This document shows positions 21,357-28,438 of a stretch of 36,815 nt of DNA, one piece after another. The stretch is from Clostridium sp. (lineage in GTDB: Bacteria > Bacillota > Clostridia > Lachnospirales > Lachnospiraceae). The stretch is from assembly GCA_023664605.1 (NCBI GenBank), contig JAMPFF010000029.1:1-36815 (forward strand), read 5' to 3'. Positions within the stretch are counted from its first letter, which is position 1. Each line of letters opens with the position of its first letter. Under the pieces are notes generated by a model. The model was not told the origin of the DNA. It made no database searches and saw only the letters and a list, made by a program, of their open reading frames with translations. The position numbers and the translations under genes are program-made.

Positions 21357-23042
21357 CTACTGTGCGGGCGCAGGCGCCGGAGCTGCCTGTGTCTGGGCAT
21401 CCGCCTGTTCCGGTACCGGTTCAGGAACAGGGGCAAGCGTAAGAACGCCCTGTGCATCAGCCTGATACAGCGTGCCGTTTAAATTAAGCTGCTGATTATT
21501 CACTATCAGCGCACCTGTCTCATCATAATAATACTGTTTTCCGTCCGCTTTTGTTACAATGCCTGTCTGCATCACGCCATTTTCGGCAAAGTAATATTTT
21601 TTACCCTCTATGTCCACGTCTCCGACAAGCATATGCCCATCTTTGGTCGAAAAATAATATCTGCCGCTCACATCATCAAGCCAGCCGTGCTGCATTGCCC
21701 CCGTATCAGGCGCATAGTAAAATCTGCCGTTTTCAAAATCTGCCCAGCCGGTAAGCCTTACGCCGTTGCCGTCGAAATTATATTCCTGACCGTCAATCGC
21801 CGCCCGGCCTCTTGTTACATCGCCATTTGCCGCCAGATAATATGTACCGCTTTCATCTGCAAACCAGCCATGCTGCATTGCGCCGCTATCGGGCGCATAA
21901 TAAAATCTGCCGTTTTCCAGATTTACCCAGCCGGTAAGCCTTACGCCGTTGCCGTCAAAATAATAGTTCTGCCCCTCAACTTCCACTTGTCCTCTTGCCA
22001 CGTCGCCGTTTGCCGTCAGATAATAGGTTCCGCTGCCGTCCGAAAACCAGCCGTGCTGCATCACGCCGCTCTCAGGCGCATAATAAAATCTGCCGTTTTC
22101 CAGATTCACCCAGCCGGTAAGCCTTACGCCGTTGCCGTCGAAATAGTAATTCTGCCCCTCAACTTCCGCCTGTCCTCTTGCCACGCTGCCGTCAGCCATC
22201 AGATAATATGTACCGCTTTCATCCGCAAACCAGCAGTTTCTCTGCAAAAATCCGCTGCCGTCCAGATAATATCTGGTATCGTTATAATTGACCCAGCCGC
22301 GCTGCATCTTATAACCTGCAAAAAATAACGTCTGTCCGTTTCTATCCAGAAAACCGTCCGAAATAATTAACGAAGAGAAATCCTTAAACTGATAATCAAT
22401 ATCCACCCTTGTGCTGACACCCGATACACTGCCGTGGGAGGAACTCTGCCAGAAAGATGCGCCGTTATATTCCAGATTATCGGCATACTGCGCTACCCAC
22501 TTATCATAACCAACGTTACCGATTCTCTGGTTAAACCAGTTTTTGCTGGAATATACCATCGGATAATACCCCGCCGCCGCTACCGTAGAGCAAAAAGTAT
22601 TCACAAGCGACTGAATCTGTCCCTGCGACAATCCCTTATGGCAGGAATCCTCGATATCGAAAACAACCGGAAAGCTGACCGTATAATTCTCCAGCCATCC
22701 GACTACCATATCGGCTTCATTCTTAGCCTGTTCCACCGTTGTTGCATAGGAATATACATAAACTCCGACTTTCAGCCCTGCATTCTGTGCGCCGCGCATA
22801 TTCGCATCAAAATACGGGTCCATGCCTGATTTGGTGCTGCCTGCCTTAATAAATGCAAAAGAAATGCCTGAAGAAGCGACACTGCCCCAGTTCACCGCGC
22901 CGTTATGCTTGGAAACGTCGATTCCCTTGGCAATGGCATTTCCGGCATTTGCCGCCTGTACATGGTTGACCGGTATCAGGCTCATGATACCGGCAAGCGC
23001 TAATGCTGCCACTCTCTTACTGAATCTGTTGAATTTTCTCAT
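21357..23042 (-). CDS. Secreted GH25 lysozyme with C-terminal cell-wall-binding repeats
   Basis: A 561-residue exported muramidase. A signal peptide (1-30, ending HVQA) precedes a GH25 domain (about 38-226). The family catalytic acids fit D42 (GIDVSKHNG) and the D129-x-E131 pair (VVFDIED). Residues 240-500 are GW-containing wall-binding repeats of the CW_binding/choline-binding type. Three units of 61 residues (270-330, 331-391, 392-452) are nearly identical. The C-terminus is Pro/Ala/Gln-rich. It should cleave the N-acetylmuramic acid/N-acetylglucosamine bond of its own or other peptidoglycan. AGGAGA lies six bases before the ATG. It is a monocistronic unit with its own promoter and terminator. 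Confidence 0.93.
   Translation of the reverse strand: MRKFNRFSKRVAALALAGIMSLIPVNHVQAANAGNAIAKGIDVSKHNGAVNWGSVASSGISFAFIKAGSTKSGMDPYFDANMRGAQNAGLKVGVYVYSYATTVEQAKNEADMVVGWLENYTVSFPVVFDIEDSCHKGLSQGQIQSLVNTFCSTVAAAGYYPMVYSSKNWFNQRIGNVGYDKWVAQYADNLEYNGASFWQSSSHGSVSGVSTRVDIDYQFKDFSSLIISDGFLDRNGQTLFFAGYKMQRGWVNYNDTRYYLDGSGFLQRNCWFADESGTYYLMADGSVARGQAEVEGQNYYFDGNGVRLTGWVNLENGRFYYAPESGVMQHGWFSDGSGTYYLTANGDVARGQVEVEGQNYYFDGNGVRLTGWVNLENGRFYYAPDSGAMQHGWFADESGTYYLAANGDVTRGRAAIDGQEYNFDGNGVRLTGWADFENGRFYYAPDTGAMQHGWLDDVSGRYYFSTKDGHMLVGDVDIEGKKYYFAENGVMQTGIVTKADGKQYYYDETGALIVNNQQLNLNGTLYQADAQGVLTLAPVPEPVPEQADAQTQAAPAPAPAQ
21687..22235 (-). repeat. Three 183-bp tandem repeats in the lysozyme gene
   Basis: Residues 270-452 consist of three 61-residue units with nearly the same sequence (CWFADESGTYY / GWFSDGSGTYY / GWFADESGTYY at their starts). 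The DNA is also nearly identical over long stretches, so copy number can change by recombination. Confidence 0.85.
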
Positions 23043-23224: not shown

Positions 23225-23307
23225 GCTGGTGTGTCGGAATGGCAGACGAGGCAGACTCAAAATCTGTTGTGGGCAACCACGTGTGGGTTCAAGTCCCACC
23301 ACCAGCA
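23225..23307 (+). tRNA. tRNA-Leu (anticodon CAA)
   Basis: The acceptor arms GCTGGTG (23225-23231) and CACCAGC (23300-23306) pair completely, with discriminator A at 23307. The anticodon stem GCAGA/TCTGT closes a 7-base loop CTCAAAA with anticodon CAA at 23258-23260, reading UUG. The T arm GTGGG-TTCAAGT-CCCAC is canonical, and a long variable arm with a short stem identifies a class II (Leu-type) tRNA. The 3' CCA is not encoded. It is a solitary tRNA with its own promoter. Confidence 0.95.
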
Positions 23308-23324
23308 TTGAAATTATCACAACC

Positions 23325-25634
23325 TTATTCCACATCCGTTGTATGATTACGGGTGTTTTTTATTTCTTTTATTTTCCGTAATATCCTGATACCGTAACCC
23401 AGCACACAAGCCCAGATTACTTCCAATGCCATAAACACAAACGTCACATTGATGTTGCGGAACGAATATTCACCCTCTTGTGCGCCAATACCGGCAAGGT
23501 TGAGCGTAATGCTGCCTTTTATCGCATAAAGGCTGCCATAAACCAATAACAGGATGAAAAAGTCAAAACATATATAAGGAATAAACCATAACGCCATATG
23601 CCCATCTTTTTCCAGCCTGCCGCCCTGACTTATCAATAAAGCAATAAAGCCCGGCGCGAGTAAAATAATAAATATTAAGATTCCCATGGAAATGTCCTCC
23701 ATATTTCCTGTATTTCTGTCGGCGGCCGCTTTATCCGCCTCCGTCTCTACCGTCTCATTTACGGTTTCCTCTACCTTGCTTCCCTCTATCGGATATAAAA
23801 CCAAATCCGCCAGTATTGGATAGCCCTCCCAGAACGTAGTTCCGCTTTCAAAGCTTAAATCCGCCCATCCATAATGTGTGCAGATGCCTCTGATAACCGA
23901 TTCCGGAATCGTCTCGCCGTCCTTTACCCAATATACGCGGCCGGTACGCTCATCCTCAATATGCACCCTATGGTATGCGTCCGGATTCCTGACAAAATCC
24001 GTTACCAGCGCAATCCGTCCATTCATATACCATTTTAAATAAGCAATATTGATATCAAAACTGCCGGCATCGATACAGGCTCTTGTCATGCTTCCGTAAA
24101 TAATATTTTCCATACTGACGGAAGTCTTCACCGATTCTGCCATAACATCCGCTTTTTTATCCTGCCCTGCTAAGATTTCCATACTGTCTTCCAGTTTCGC
24201 CTGAACATCCTGTTGAAAATATGGTATCTTTGAAAGATGTTCCGGCATCCCGTCGCGATACAGGTTGAAATTCAGGTAAGCGTCTTTTTCCGATTTATTT
24301 CCCCACGACCAGTCAAAATCCCAGGCCGGTCCCGCGCACAGCTTTCCATTCTTTTCGTCAATATAATAGAATGTGCTGCGGACATTAATATCTTCTTCGT
24401 TTGTTATCTCGTCTATCAAGTACATAATCACAAAGGAATCGATATCAATATATTCCCGTAATTTTCGATACTCCTCCCTTGTGTCGCATTCGCTGATGAG
24501 ATTTTCAATCGTATTCATCCGTTCCGTCAGCCAGGCAAGCGATTCCTCCGAATTCTCTTTCGGATAGCGGATATCATACGCCAGTCCATACTGGTCGGTA
24601 AAACTGTCATTTTCTTCAGACACTACGTCAACTGCAAACAAATAAGAGCTTTCGCCCGCTATATCTACCCGGTTCTTTTCCACTTCAATCTGTTCACATA
24701 CCAGATAGCTGCCGCCGTATTCACCATTGAAATAAACGTCCACATATGTGGAATCAACCGCATACGGCAGACCTAAATCTCTCGCTAACTGGTATGCCAT
24801 TCCGTTTCTGATTCTGACCGGGTCAAACGCATTTGCCTGCAATACCCAATCCGTAGCCGTTCCCAGGGAAAGGAAATCCGCAGCCGCCTCTAAAGTGATT
24901 TTATAGGACTTTTTCATGGCTTCCAAACTGGACTGCCCTCTTGCATGAATCGACAGAGCGCCTGCGCTGTCAATCTTCCCATCAGCCAGAATACACACCA
25001 TTTTACCCGGTTCCTTATGCTCCTTGGACTCATTTAAGTATTCCATTGTGCCATTTGCCGTCTCAATAAAAACGGCCGGTAAAGACTCCGAACGCATAAA
25101 CTGTAAAGAATACACTATATCGTTTTCCTGTGCCTCATCCACGACACCGGATAAATGTGAAATACAAAGCGTATGCGGCTTTTCAGCGCTCCAGTCAGAA
25201 AGCCTGTCGCCATTTCCAATCTTTTTATTATCGATTGACAGTGCATATTCCGACTCGTCATAGCGCATCGTCAGTATATCGGACGCCGCACATGCCGGCA
25301 GATAAAAATAACACATGTCACCATTCATATATAATTTAATATCCTGTCTGATGGAAGCGTTTTCCATCTGCAAATAAATATCCAGATATCCGGCGTAATC
25401 ATAAGCATCCGCTTTTTCTGCGGCAGCGTCTGCAGCAGCCCCCTCCGGGCTTTCCTCAAACTCTCCCACCTGTCCTTCTATCTCAATATCCGGATTTTTT
25501 TCATTCCCAGCCTGTGCGTTATCGCCTAAATGGGTAAAAAGATAAATGCCGGATATAAAAATTGCTATCCAGATAATGCCATTTGCCGCTATCTGTGCAA
25601 AATGCCGTCCTTTTCTCTCATTCTTCTGCGCCAT
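23325..25634 (-). CDS. CotH-type protein kinase, membrane anchored
   Basis: A protein of about 769 residues with an N-terminal membrane helix (near 17-36), a large extracytoplasmic part and three C-terminal membrane helices. The middle carries the CotH domain: ARGQSSLEAMKKSYKITLE, then WVLQANAFDPVRIRNGMAY, then DVYFNGEYGGSYLVCEQIEV, and the acidic kinase motif GPAWDFDWSWGN. CotH proteins are atypical kinases; B. subtilis CotH phosphorylates spore-coat proteins. Here the fused membrane helices suggest action at the cell surface. The start ATG at 25634 overlaps the upstream CotH-like gene by 17 bases; a TTG at 25664 is an alternative. Last gene of the VTC-DUF4956 operon. Confidence 0.85.
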   Translation of the reverse strand: MAQKNERKGRHFAQIAANGIIWIAIFISGIYLFTHLGDNAQAGNEKNPDIEIEGQVGEFEESPEGAAADAAAEKADAYDYAGYLDIYLQMENASIRQDIKLYMNGDMCYFYLPACAASDILTMRYDESEYALSIDNKKIGNGDRLSDWSAEKPHTLCISHLSGVVDEAQENDIVYSLQFMRSESLPAVFIETANGTMEYLNESKEHKEPGKMVCILADGKIDSAGALSIHARGQSSLEAMKKSYKITLEAAADFLSLGTATDWVLQANAFDPVRIRNGMAYQLARDLGLPYAVDSTYVDVYFNGEYGGSYLVCEQIEVEKNRVDIAGESSYLFAVDVVSEENDSFTDQYGLAYDIRYPKENSEESLAWLTERMNTIENLISECDTREEYRKLREYIDIDSFVIMYLIDEITNEEDINVRSTFYYIDEKNGKLCAGPAWDFDWSWGNKSEKDAYLNFNLYRDGMPEHLSKIPYFQQDVQAKLEDSMEILAGQDKKADVMAESVKTSVSMENIIYGSMTRACIDAGSFDINIAYLKWYMNGRIALVTDFVRNPDAYHRVHIEDERTGRVYWVKDGETIPESVIRGICTHYGWADLSFESGTTFWEGYPILADLVLYPIEGSKVEETVNETVETEADKAAADRNTGNMEDISMGILIFIILLAPGFIALLISQGGRLEKDGHMALWFIPYICFDFFILLLVYGSLYAIKGSITLNLAGIGAQEGEYSFRNINVTFVFMALEVIWACVLGYGIRILRKIKEIKNTRNHTTDVE
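23331..23375 (+). terminator. Possible terminator for tRNA-Leu inside the convergent CotH gene end
   Basis: CAC-x2-CCGT (23331-23339) can pair with ACGGGTG (23349-23355) with a two-base bulge, followed by a long T-rich stretch. It lies 24 bases after the tRNA but within the last codons of the opposite-strand gene. Confidence 0.45.
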
Positions 25635-27036
25635 AGTACCTGTCCAGTACCTCCATTCTCTCAAGCAGATATTGCGTCAACTCTCCTATGCTCTCCTCAT
25701 AGTCGGCCGCATCTATACTATTGTTCCCGCTTCTGGCAATGAAACCTGTTGCATACAAATATTGTTTCTGCTCTTCTATTACCGTTGCCAAAACCTCGTC
25801 GCTAATAGCGGATTCTCTTAAACTTTGCCACAGTTTTTCCGCCTGCGCCGCCAGATATTCACATGTTTTTTCATCCGCAATCCCCAAATCGGCTCCTGTC
25901 AGAATCCGTTTTTCCCTCTGCCATGTCATATACTGCATCCGGTTAGGAAAAATGCCAAAACTGTATTCTATCTTACCCGGCACAAGATAGGACTCTCCCG
26001 CCTTATCATCACGGACAATATATAAATCATCCATAATATTTTCGTATGCATATGCGGCTTCCAAAAAAATGAAATACTCTATAAGATTATCCAAATGGGA
26101 AGCCTGCGTCATATAAAAGTTCTCATTATCATACGCTTTCTGAGTCTTATCCGCCTCTACATGAATCACTTCCCCGCTTTCGTCTAACAGCATGGAATCA
26201 TCATCTACACGGGGCGTTAATAAAAATAACCCCTTATATTCATCATTTACAATCAATTCCGCATATCTGCACGCTCTATCCAGTTTTTCCACGGAATTAA
26301 TACGGTTCCATAGAGTATAAGCCAGCATGGAACGGATATAGGTTTTGTCCTTGGCGCTTATCGCATATAATTTCCATGCGTCATATTTGCCCATATCCAG
26401 TAATGACAGCTTGCGGTTCATGATATTTTCCTGATTCACCAATTTAACCGTATAGGTCTCCAGATTTTGGCTGCACTTTATCAGACTGTCAGAGTCCTTA
26501 CCGGAAATGGCATTGATTGCTTTATCTTCCGGGTTCCATACTGCAATGCTGCCGCTTCCATATTCCGTTCCCGGCTCCGCTTCCATATACAGCTCGACAA
26601 CCGGCAGACCGGTAAAAACAATATTGCATACCGCATATCTTTCTTTTGTGGCTATCCAGACGGAAAAAGAATGCCCCTGACTGACGGCCTCTTTCTTATC
26701 TTTGGTATAATCATCCGCCTCTATCCAAATGGCAATATCTTCAGAAGCCGCGCTGATAACGCCGTTATACTTTTTTTCGGACACATCCTGACAGATATAG
26801 AAGCAGTTCGACTCCTTATCATAAGGAATTGGCTGCCTCTCAAACAATATTAACGCTTTTGCATTGTCTACCTGCTCCATATATACTTTATCAGCGCATA
26901 TATCCGCCAGTTTCTCTTTACTTTCTATGGTAACGCCGCAAAGCGTACTGCCTTCCAACAGATGAAATGCGCCTACAGAAAATAAGAGCAGTACAATAAA
27001 GACACTGCCCCAGATTATCTTTTTATCAGCCAACAT
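25618..27036 (-). CDS. CotH-like protein with degenerate kinase motif
   Basis: A 472-residue protein with one N-terminal membrane anchor (about 7-27) and an outside domain. I identify it by position-for-position resemblance to the CotH protein next to it. The segment KYDAWKLYAISAKDKTYIRS and then LAYTLWNRI corresponds to the CotH block after the conserved lysine. RYAELIVNDEYKGLFLLTPRV corresponds to VYFNGEYGGSYLVCEQIEV. At the place of the acidic WDFDWSWGN motif it reads KIEYSFGIFPN, so the metal-binding aspartates appear lost. It is probably a non-catalytic partner. It overlaps the DUF4956 gene by 11 bases and the CotH gene by 17. GGGGGAG immediately precedes the ATG. Confidence 0.6.
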   Translation of the reverse strand: MLADKKIIWGSVFIVLLLFSVGAFHLLEGSTLCGVTIESKEKLADICADKVYMEQVDNAKALILFERQPIPYDKESNCFYICQDVSEKKYNGVISAASEDIAIWIEADDYTKDKKEAVSQGHSFSVWIATKERYAVCNIVFTGLPVVELYMEAEPGTEYGSGSIAVWNPEDKAINAISGKDSDSLIKCSQNLETYTVKLVNQENIMNRKLSLLDMGKYDAWKLYAISAKDKTYIRSMLAYTLWNRINSVEKLDRACRYAELIVNDEYKGLFLLTPRVDDDSMLLDESGEVIHVEADKTQKAYDNENFYMTQASHLDNLIEYFIFLEAAYAYENIMDDLYIVRDDKAGESYLVPGKIEYSFGIFPNRMQYMTWQREKRILTGADLGIADEKTCEYLAAQAEKLWQSLRESAISDEVLATVIEEQKQYLYATGFIARSGNNSIDAADYEESIGELTQYLLERMEVLDRYYGAEE

Positions 27037-27697
27037 GCTCCCCCATTTCCAGCAGCCAGCTAACGCTCTCTACATTGTTTATTTTCCGCAATTCTTCCGT
27101 TGCCTCCTGCGAAATCTCTCCCTTAGCGTCCACTTCACAAATCAATTCGCAGCGGCTGTCACTAAAATTGGCCGAACGAACCTGCGGATGCCTGTAATGC
27201 TTTTTCAAACAGTCCAATATCTCATCCTGCTTTACATCTTTGCCTCCGTGAATCACAATCAGGTATTTTTTCTTCACCGCATAGTAAAAAGAACCGGCCA
27301 AAATAAAAAGCGCGATAATCAAGGTAGAAATCAGCGCCAGCTTATAAATCTGCGCGCCAACGCAAAGCCCTTCAATAATGGCCCAAAAAATATAGATGGT
27401 ATCCTGCGGGTCTTTAATTGCCGTACGGAATCTGACAATGGACAATGCGCCGACCATACCAAGCGAAATCGCTATATTACTGCTAATCATCAGCATAATC
27501 GTTGCGGCAATCAAAACCAAAACCACATTGCCGACATTAAATTTGGCATTATAACTGACTCCCTGATAGGCAATGCGGTAAGTCATAAAAATAATGGCTC
27601 CCACCAAAATTCCCATCATCAGAATAAAAACGATTCTGTCTGCCTGTAATGCCTCATTATTTGCGGTAAACCATTCCAAAATATCGCTTTTTGACAT
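27026..27697 (-). CDS. DUF4956 family membrane protein
   Basis: A 223-residue protein with about four membrane helices (near 22-40, 55-77, 100-115, 118-137) and a soluble C-terminal domain of about 80 residues. The segment GMVGALSIVRFRTAIKDPQD is the signature of DUF4956 proteins. Their biochemical role is not known. They are commonly encoded next to VTC-type polyphosphate polymerase and CotH genes, as here. The ATG has AGAGGAG seven bases upstream. It starts 24 bases after the VTC gene, and its stop overlaps the next gene's start, pointing to coupled translation. Confidence 0.88.
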   Translation of the reverse strand: MSKSDILEWFTANNEALQADRIVFILMMGILVGAIIFMTYRIAYQGVSYNAKFNVGNVVLVLIAATIMLMISSNIAISLGMVGALSIVRFRTAIKDPQDTIYIFWAIIEGLCVGAQIYKLALISTLIIALFILAGSFYYAVKKKYLIVIHGGKDVKQDEILDCLKKHYRHPQVRSANFSDSRCELICEVDAKGEISQEATEELRKINNVESVSWLLEMGEHVG

Positions 27698-27721
27698 TTA
27701 TTTGCTCCTCTCCGGTTCCTG

Positions 27722-28402
27722 TCATCCTATGGCAATCCGGCCCCTGCCGTATTTGCTGAAAGAAATGTTTACAAGATGGTACTTTGCCAGTATTCGTTTG
27801 ACGGATTCCAAAAGACAGCCGTCATATTTGACTTCCAGTATGACAAATTCCTCTTTCAATACCGGTAAAAAGGGGATTTTCTCATCCCATAAATCAAATA
27901 CGGTTTTGCTGCTTCTAATATTTTTATCAAAAGTCACTCTGATATTAAAATCGGGATAAACATACGCTTTTCTATCATATTCTATCACGGCCGCCGGACG
28001 ATATGCGCCAAGACGCAGCATGGAATATAAACGTTCTCCCTCCGCCCCGTATTGAAAAAGCGTCTCATAATCACCTTCTATGCACCGGCAGGCATCTTCT
28101 TTCGATACCGAAATACTTGTTTTTTTCTGATAGCTTCCGTTTTTTTCCTTTATTTCAAACTTCGCCGTATCCTGCCCTGTATCATATATCCTGAGCCTGA
28201 TTTTTTTACGTTTGTCTTCCCCGCTTATTTTTTCATACAAATCAATATCATTGATAGAATCAAAGTACAGACTTCTCACCATGTAATAAGACGACTGCGT
28301 ATGCGCATCCAGATCCAGTATCTGCTGTAAGTCATTCTGGAGCATAAGCGCATCCGCATATTTCATCATGAACTTTAATTCTCTCCGGCATACCGTTATC
28401 AT
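27722..28402 (-). CDS. VTC-domain protein (polyphosphate polymerase-like)
   Basis: A 226-residue soluble protein made entirely of a VTC domain, the tunnel-fold catalytic domain that makes polyphosphate from ATP in yeast. Conserved charged strands are all present: CRRELKFM at the start, KKIRLRIYD, AKFEIKEKNG, AVIEYDRKAYV, FNIRVTFDKNIR and FVILEVKYDG. No SPX domain or membrane part is fused. The start is uncertain: a TTG at 28411 lies four bases after AGGAG, and the ATG at 28402 lies 13 bases after it. I chose the ATG. It is the first gene of the VTC - DUF4956 - CotH-like - CotH run. Activity as polyphosphate polymerase in bacteria is inferred from fold. Confidence 0.85.
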   Translation of the reverse strand: MITVCRRELKFMMKYADALMLQNDLQQILDLDAHTQSSYYMVRSLYFDSINDIDLYEKISGEDKRKKIRLRIYDTGQDTAKFEIKEKNGSYQKKTSISVSKEDACRCIEGDYETLFQYGAEGERLYSMLRLGAYRPAAVIEYDRKAYVYPDFNIRVTFDKNIRSSKTVFDLWDEKIPFLPVLKEEFVILEVKYDGCLLESVKRILAKYHLVNISFSKYGRGRIAIG

Positions 28403-28409
28403 CTTTATC

Positions 28410-28438
28410 AATATACTCCTGTCTTATCCCCAAGTCAA
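28410..28438 (-). promoter_or_regulatory. Possible promoter for the VTC operon
   Basis: On the minus strand TTGACT (28433-28438) and TATATT (28410-28415) are 17 bases apart. The -10 ends only seven bases before the ATG of the VTC gene, so a transcript from it would be nearly leaderless. Confidence 0.45.

Follow-up and report, generated by a model that had tools for sequence, protein, structure and literature searches.

A VTC-DUF4956-CotH operon in a Lachnospiraceae Clostridium as a possible bacterial equivalent of the yeast VTC complex

The operon and its copies

On contig JAMPFF010000029.1 of a Lachnospiraceae Clostridium sp. (assembly GCA_023664605.1), analysed here from position 1 to 36,815 and called the window, four head-to-tail genes occupy the minus strand from 28402 to 23325. 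They encode, in order of transcription, a VTC-domain protein, a DUF4956 protein, a CotH-like protein and a CotH-family kinase (Table 1). An earlier note, made from the letters of the window alone, had described these genes as tightly coupled. Open reading frames and Pfam, in which all four proteins exceed the family cut-offs, agree with it: with ATG starts, a gap of 24 bases lies between VTC and DUF4956, followed by overlaps of 11 and 17 bases.

Table 1. Genes, motifs and boundary of the window operon (window positions)
Feature	Position	Strand	Details
VTC-domain protein	27722-28402	-	226 aa; ATG start; in-frame TTG at 28411; Pfam VTC 6.7e-38
DUF4956 protein	27026-27697	-	223 aa; Pfam DUF4956 3.8e-11
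RFRTAIKD motif of DUF4956	27410-27433	-	residues 89-96; predicted cytoplasmic loop between helices 3 and 4
C-terminal ACT-like domain of DUF4956	27044-27274	-	residues 142-218
CotH-like protein	25618-27036	-	472 aa; N-terminal anchor; Pfam 4.7e-9
GKIEYSFG of CotH-like	25954-25977	-	degenerate counterpart of WDxD segment
CotH-family kinase	23325-25634	-	769 aa; ATG start; TTG at 25664; Pfam CotH 8.5e-36
NEEDINVRS of CotH	24375-24401	-	catalytic positions kept
WDFDWSWGN catalytic segment of CotH	24297-24323	-	catalytic positions kept
tRNA-Leu	23225-23307	convergent	operon's downstream boundary

Three further VTC-DUF4956-CotH sets lie in the same genome, two on contig C6 and one on contig C64 (stretches L016-L018), so that four VTC and four DUF4956 genes are paired at four places with CotH at each. 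This repeated pairing places the grouping beyond chance. A fifth CotH place, on contig C76, has neither VTC nor DUF4956.

VTC and DUF4956 form the conserved core

Among 149 genomes of the window's phylum, VTC was found in 20 and DUF4956 in the same 20, with equal copy numbers per genome and 28 copies of each overall. In 27 of the 28 pairs the two genes are no more than 2 kb apart, and the remaining pair falls on two contig ends. The pattern recurs in Pseudomonadota (the phylum to which G186, a Candidatus Thiodiazotropha genome with locus L131, belongs), where the same 7 of 249 genomes hold both families, with 9 copies of each and pair members no more than 4 kb apart. One further genome has a VTC match under the curated cut-off. 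Among control genomes, the same three were positive for both families. Corynebacterium glutamicum, which is among the controls, carries VTC, DUF4956 and CotH. The combination, which the earlier note also placed in other Firmicutes, recurs across phyla.

A set of 80 named loci, the best 80 of at least 587 DUF4956 matches, contains VTC in 73 and CotH in 74; its search pattern holds part of the RFR motif described below, and it favours the DUF4956 subtype of the window. Gene order varies among these loci (VTC-DUF4956-CotH in 25, CotH-VTC-DUF4956 in 22, CotH-DUF4956-VTC in 10) and the set itself remains together. Over 81 single-copy loci, VTC and DUF4956 distances correlate at 0.85; when conditioned on CotH the value is 0.71, compared with 0.35 and 0.21 for the two pairings that involve CotH, all without species-tree correction. 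The pooled protein sets contain one duplicate record (L060 = L149).

The partners of the pair are more variable. Within about 5 kb of the 28 pairs from the window's phylum we found CotH 19 times, a Cthe_2159 protein five times, a lamin-tail protein three times and no partner once. Partners of the nine Pseudomonadota pairs were CotH in six (L209 by Pfam only) and a PHO4 phosphate transporter in two; the pair with neither has a piece of an IS110-type transposase after VTC. The core of the gene set is VTC plus DUF4956, and CotH is its commonest yet replaceable partner. The idea that VTC and DUF4956 exist only to feed CotH was rejected, since 9/28 and 3/9 pairs have no CotH nearby. Cthe_2159 proteins replace CotH beside VTC-DUF4956 in L044 (8960-11299), L045, L047, L048 and L049.

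A candidate polymerase and an MgtC-like membrane partner

The VTC domain scores 131 bits against a curated Pfam cut-off of 23, and a profile built from 27 relatives has yeast Vtc4 (3g3q) as its top PDB match (E 1.7e-17). Residue-by-residue alignment with 3g3q finds the active-site positions of Vtc4 kept (RxR, ExK, K, YxR, RxxxD, ExK and SK), taking the catalytic residues of Vtc4 and their roles as presumed. Eighteen columns are invariant in the 27 relatives, including K67, R69, R71, E83, K85, K94, R144, R155, E190, K192, S216 and K217. The polyphosphate-polymerase-like domain named in the earlier note is thus recovered, and we regard the window protein as a candidate soluble polyphosphate polymerase that looks catalytically competent. 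Pfam gives only VTC in its 226 residues, with no SPX or Vtc1-type membrane domain and no hydrophobic segment. Single-sequence PDB searches with the VTC, DUF4956 and CotH-like proteins returned nothing useful.

The DUF4956 protein (PF16316; 43.4 bits against a curated cut-off of 30.6) is predicted to have five helices followed by a C-terminal ACT/ferredoxin-like domain (AlphaFold2 pLDDT 84.9). In hhalign, DUF4956 matches MgtC with a probability of 97.9 over 194 columns, and its membrane part alone with 94.0 over 117; 20 control families score at most 2.5 against DUF4956. Restricting the sets to 108 and 28 distinct sequences left the value at 97.9, the MgtC set comprising 32 rows and 28 distinct proteins. 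A direct Pfam scan for MgtC/SapB (PF02308) stays below its cut-off (E 0.31; 11.9 bits against 31.4). Judged by profile similarity, DUF4956 is a remote MgtC/SapB relative, homologous at the superfamily level and outside PF02308.

The arginine and phenylalanine residues R89, F90 and R91 are invariant in the 28 survey copies from the window's phylum. This RFR motif is present in 6 of 9 Pseudomonadota copies and missing in the three of alphaproteobacterial type, reads RYR in Deinococcus, and occurs in the same context in none of the 32 MgtC rows. The larger, 109-row DUF4956 set is biased for RFR because its search pattern contains RF. The DUF4956 copy on C64 (L018 3723-4187) is 154 aa long and lacks the ACT-like domain, through either a frameshift or true truncation.

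An active-type kinase beside a pseudokinase

The window CotH matches the Pfam family at 124.5 bits over residues 229-485, a kinase domain placed outside the membrane, and PDB 5jd9 at 4.5e-10. Its five catalytic positions read D, S, W, D and D; among 107 distinct CotH proteins, 71 have N and 31 have S at the second of these. An adenine-packing aromatic is kept as W, Y or F in 102/107, which favours a nucleotide donor over polyphosphate. We dropped the adenine-sandwich tyrosine as a marker since its region is too poorly aligned (Y 41, F 11, W 6 and gap 27 of 108 rows). An N-terminal hydrophobic anchor in 98 of the 107 proteins is in line with the anchored state proposed in the earlier note. The window protein has one such anchor and three C-terminal hydrophobic segments; the latter were considered as a general link between CotH and DUF4956 and rejected, as only 2/107 proteins have three.

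Two of the other CotH genes in this genome show features of their own. In the second C6 copy (L017 6149-7742), CotH is split into two overlapping reading frames close to the contig end. On C76 (L019 7533-12708), the CotH gene lies near a gene for an MBOAT O-acyltransferase (Pfam 3.2e-32), suggesting a link to glycan O-acylation, and near a 342-aa protein without a Pfam family.

The second gene of this type in the window is different. The CotH-like protein has a CotH fold, with a Pfam match covering only positions 34-109 of the 322 in the profile. At the five catalytic positions it reads E, D, G, K and E; the glycine-rich strand is missing in the alignment and the conserved glutamate is a proline. 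Because all five examined positions differ, we consider it a CotH-fold pseudokinase that is very probably catalytically dead. This overturns the pair of active CotH kinases envisaged in the earlier note. Gene adjacency places a pseudokinase beside an active-type CotH kinase in three diverged loci, and the chances that the CotH-like protein works on CotH, by analogy with kinase-pseudokinase pairs, seem to us evenly balanced.

Neighbouring genes

Plasmid-borne copies offer a different view of the pair. We examined 7 of 19 plasmid matches, of which the Nonomuraea one lacks annotation. The Nitratireductor plasmid carries DUF4956-VTC-Pit transporter-phytase-like genes, those of Shinella and Aminobacter carry DUF4956-VTC-phytase-like genes, and in Deinococcus VTC-DUF4956 lies near a HAD acid phosphatase and phnDCE. 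Planococcus has VTC-DUF4956-CotH, and Pseudobutyrivibrio has CotH-VTC-DUF4956 flanked by glycosyltransferases. The phosphate genes, which accompany a more distant type of DUF4956, are the best independent sign that VTC-DUF4956 handles phosphate. They support the phosphate-polymer role suggested in the earlier note.

In the window itself, an unrelated decarboxylase gene lies 63 bases upstream of the operon, followed by uracil-DNA glycosylase and histidine-biosynthesis genes. A Pfam scan of five neighbouring genes found all of them unrelated and none of pel type. Beyond the tRNA-Leu, 21357-23042 encodes a GH25 lysozyme-like protein with eight Choline_bind_3 stretches. A scan for regulatory sites gave 24 promoter-like sites against 15.4 (sd 3.8) expected and 4 terminator-like sites against 4.7. 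One promoter-like site stands directly ahead of VTC (28438-28410, 10 of 12 matches). We give neither the scan nor this site any weight.

A proposed mechanism and its alternatives

Our best reading, at roughly even odds, is that the operon gives this bacterium an equivalent of the eukaryotic VTC complex, to which a surface kinase unit is attached. VTC and DUF4956 are very likely to form one unit at the membrane, a step well supported by co-occurrence and homology. The soluble VTC domain would polymerise phosphate to polyphosphate at the cytoplasmic face, and we think it probable that the unit makes this polymer. DUF4956, whose RFR motif lies in a loop predicted to be positive and cytoplasmic, may recruit the polymerase, its ACT-like domain may sense or dock, and as an oligomer DUF4956 could plausibly provide a membrane route for the polyanion. 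That DUF4956 passes polyphosphate outward is a possibility that we rate slightly below even. Outside the membrane, the active-type CotH kinase would act with the pseudokinase, whose role may be to activate or position it. Envelope glycans or glycan-linked proteins are a tentative choice of substrate.

A further and weak step would have polyphosphate supply phosphate, energy or counter-ions to the kinase reaction. That CotH takes phosphate from polyphosphate is the weakest step of the proposal and in our view improbable. The same low odds apply to a fuller scheme of extracellular polyphosphate-driven phosphorylation, in which an MgtC-like pore would export the polymer and a pseudokinase-activated CotH would use it directly or via regenerated ATP. 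If true, such use of the polymer would allow exopolysaccharide or surface proteins to be phosphorylated where free ATP is scarce. Overall, the interpretation in the earlier note is partly supported.

Several observations weigh against this proposal. Seven of the 80 named loci have no VTC gene: in L089, L121 and L139 the contig ends near DUF4956, and a VTC search across all 1.4 Mb of the L139 genome gave nothing; L070 has VTC only as a piece running off the edge, 8 kb away; and in L074, L144 and L147 it is absent within the stretch read. The alphaproteobacterial DUF4956 type, taken alone, matches MgtC with a probability of 0.6 and the window DUF4956 with 93.3. The RFR motif is absent from this type, which is also the main source of the phosphate neighbours. 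We can only infer the pore, since PDB searches, including one with the DUF4956 profile, found no solved relative of the membrane part, and since confidence in the model is lowest around the RFR motif (block means 60-70), if the final three residues are set aside. No polysaccharide gene lies beside the window operon. Biochemical evidence of polyphosphate synthesis by a bacterial VTC domain did not appear in those portions of the literature that our search covered. Finally, PPK1 is present in 9 of the 20 VTC genomes, this one included, and in 14 of the 129 others. VTC is thus not simply the polyphosphate synthase of the cell, and we rejected it as a plain substitute for PPK1.

The strongest alternative, which we nevertheless hold to be unlikely, is that VTC and DUF4956 make polyphosphate and retain it in the cytoplasm, for storage or for Mg2+ and phosphate homeostasis. 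DUF4956 would then serve as a membrane tether or as a regulator resembling MgtC, with no link to the secreted partners beyond shared regulation. The MgtC likeness suits this explanation, as MgtC proteins are known for regulating Mg2+, ATP synthase and phosphate and not as pores, and phosphate-import neighbours fit storage. So does a cluster of response-regulator and sensor-kinase genes in 10/26 stretches, with two pairs (L044 and L060) checked by Pfam, which suggests that a signal from the envelope or from phosphate may control the module. However, 27/28 pairs from the window's phylum have a nearby partner from a family taken to be secreted, above what shared regulation would lead us to expect, and the set stays together despite its changing gene order. 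The regulatory cluster adjoins VTC-DUF4956 in L044, L045, L047, L050, L055, L059, L060, L061, L062 and L068.

Less likely still, the module could be an accessory of synthase-dependent exopolysaccharide systems, with VTC and DUF4956 controlling or energising a membrane GT2 synthase and CotH phosphorylating the glycan or its machinery. Evidence for this comes from 11/80 loci in which an unannotated protein of about 700 aa, a HEAT protein and a GT2 synthase follow CotH, and from L142, which has a cellulose-synthase-like GT2 with PilZ and, like L057, AlgX/DHHW-like genes that are borderline at the AlgX cut-off. Published pel loci (PMC7112168) and the glycosyltransferase of a C. perfringens locus (PMC2879425), as far as the accessible parts of these papers describe them, point the same way. 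Against it, the GT2 profile has no match in the window or in L016-L018, a result confined to this one glycosyltransferase family, and GT2 of the same type lies within the stretch in 18/80 loci, a figure given without a matched background rate. It also leaves the phosphate-gene neighbours of other phyla unexplained.

Glycosyltransferases recur elsewhere around the set. They head the list of families among 101 same-strand neighbours (of 139 genes listed), where the commonest family has only 5 members. A GT8 gene adjoins DUF4956 in L070, and GT2-type matches occur in L070 and L071. The eleven loci with the GT2-HEAT extension are L075, L076, L077, L080, L098, L114, L128, L129, L132, L137 and L138. 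The one-anchor protein of about 700 aa (10196-12274 in L075) falls under Pfam cut-offs in L075, L077, L128, L137 and Planococcus; it represents a family not yet described, encoded within a conserved operon.

The least probable alternative, that the bacterial VTC domain is some other triphosphate-tunnel enzyme, for example one binding or hydrolysing nucleotide or inorganic triphosphates as a signal, draws on the several activities that the fold serves and on the lack of a reported bacterial VTC activity in the literature portions searched, yet in both Pfam and the PDB the domain matches the VTC branch specifically, Vtc4 being the top PDB entry, and it keeps the basic tunnel positions.

Comparison with known systems

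The yeast VTC complex (Vtc4 polymerase with a Vtc1-type membrane domain; PDB 3g3q, 7ytj and 8i6v) shares a homologous polymerase domain, the active-site positions and a membrane partner with the window operon. In yeast, polyphosphate is made on one side of a membrane and moved across it, according to the available text of PMC10657179. The window operon differs in lacking SPX, in having its polymerase as a separate soluble protein, and in its DUF4956/MgtC-like membrane partner, where yeast has Vtc1-type helices.

The gene combination itself is already in print. Whitfield et al. 2020 (PMC7112168, in the portion available) report cotH, poly-phosphate polymerase and DUF4956 genes adjoining pel genes in Gram-positive loci, the same three contiguous families in streptococcal, clostridial and bifidobacterial genomes. 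That portion treats neither VTC-DUF4956 coupling nor MgtC. The window operon adds a pseudokinase and has no pel-type neighbours as far as scanned. In C. perfringens, NELoc-2 has two VTC genes, each followed by a tubulin/FtsZ-like gene, together with CotH, a 685-aa hypothetical protein, HEAT and glycosyltransferase genes and a resolvase, with no pseudokinase noted in the accessible parts of PMC2879425 and PMC11677781. By position, the tubulin/FtsZ-like genes are presumably DUF4956. The gene order of NELoc-2 resembles the GT2-HEAT extension.

MgtC/SapB (PF02308) aligns with DUF4956 over the full profile, including the C-terminal ACT-like domain; DUF4956, in contrast, falls under the Pfam cut-off of that family, is tied to VTC genes and bears the RFR motif. 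The spore-coat kinase CotH (PDB 5jd9/5jda) shares its fold and catalytic positions with the window CotH, which is anchored, has extra membrane segments and belongs to a VTC/DUF4956 operon. Among kinases, the pseudokinase FAM20A activates the kinase FAM20C. The window kinase and pseudokinase, whose pairing is known from gene adjacency, are a possible bacterial analogue of FAM20C/FAM20A.

Open-licence papers, in the parts that our search reached, contained no DUF4956-MgtC link. The strict VTC-DUF4956 coupling, the MgtC ancestry, the phosphate-gene neighbours and the pseudokinase did not appear in them. DUF4956, a family without a function, thereby gains an MgtC-like ancestry and a partner from which it is almost never separate, and together these make a bacterial polyphosphate route across the membrane directly testable. 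The comparison touches two open questions, the role of MgtC-like proteins and the phosphate source of kinases outside the bacterial membrane.

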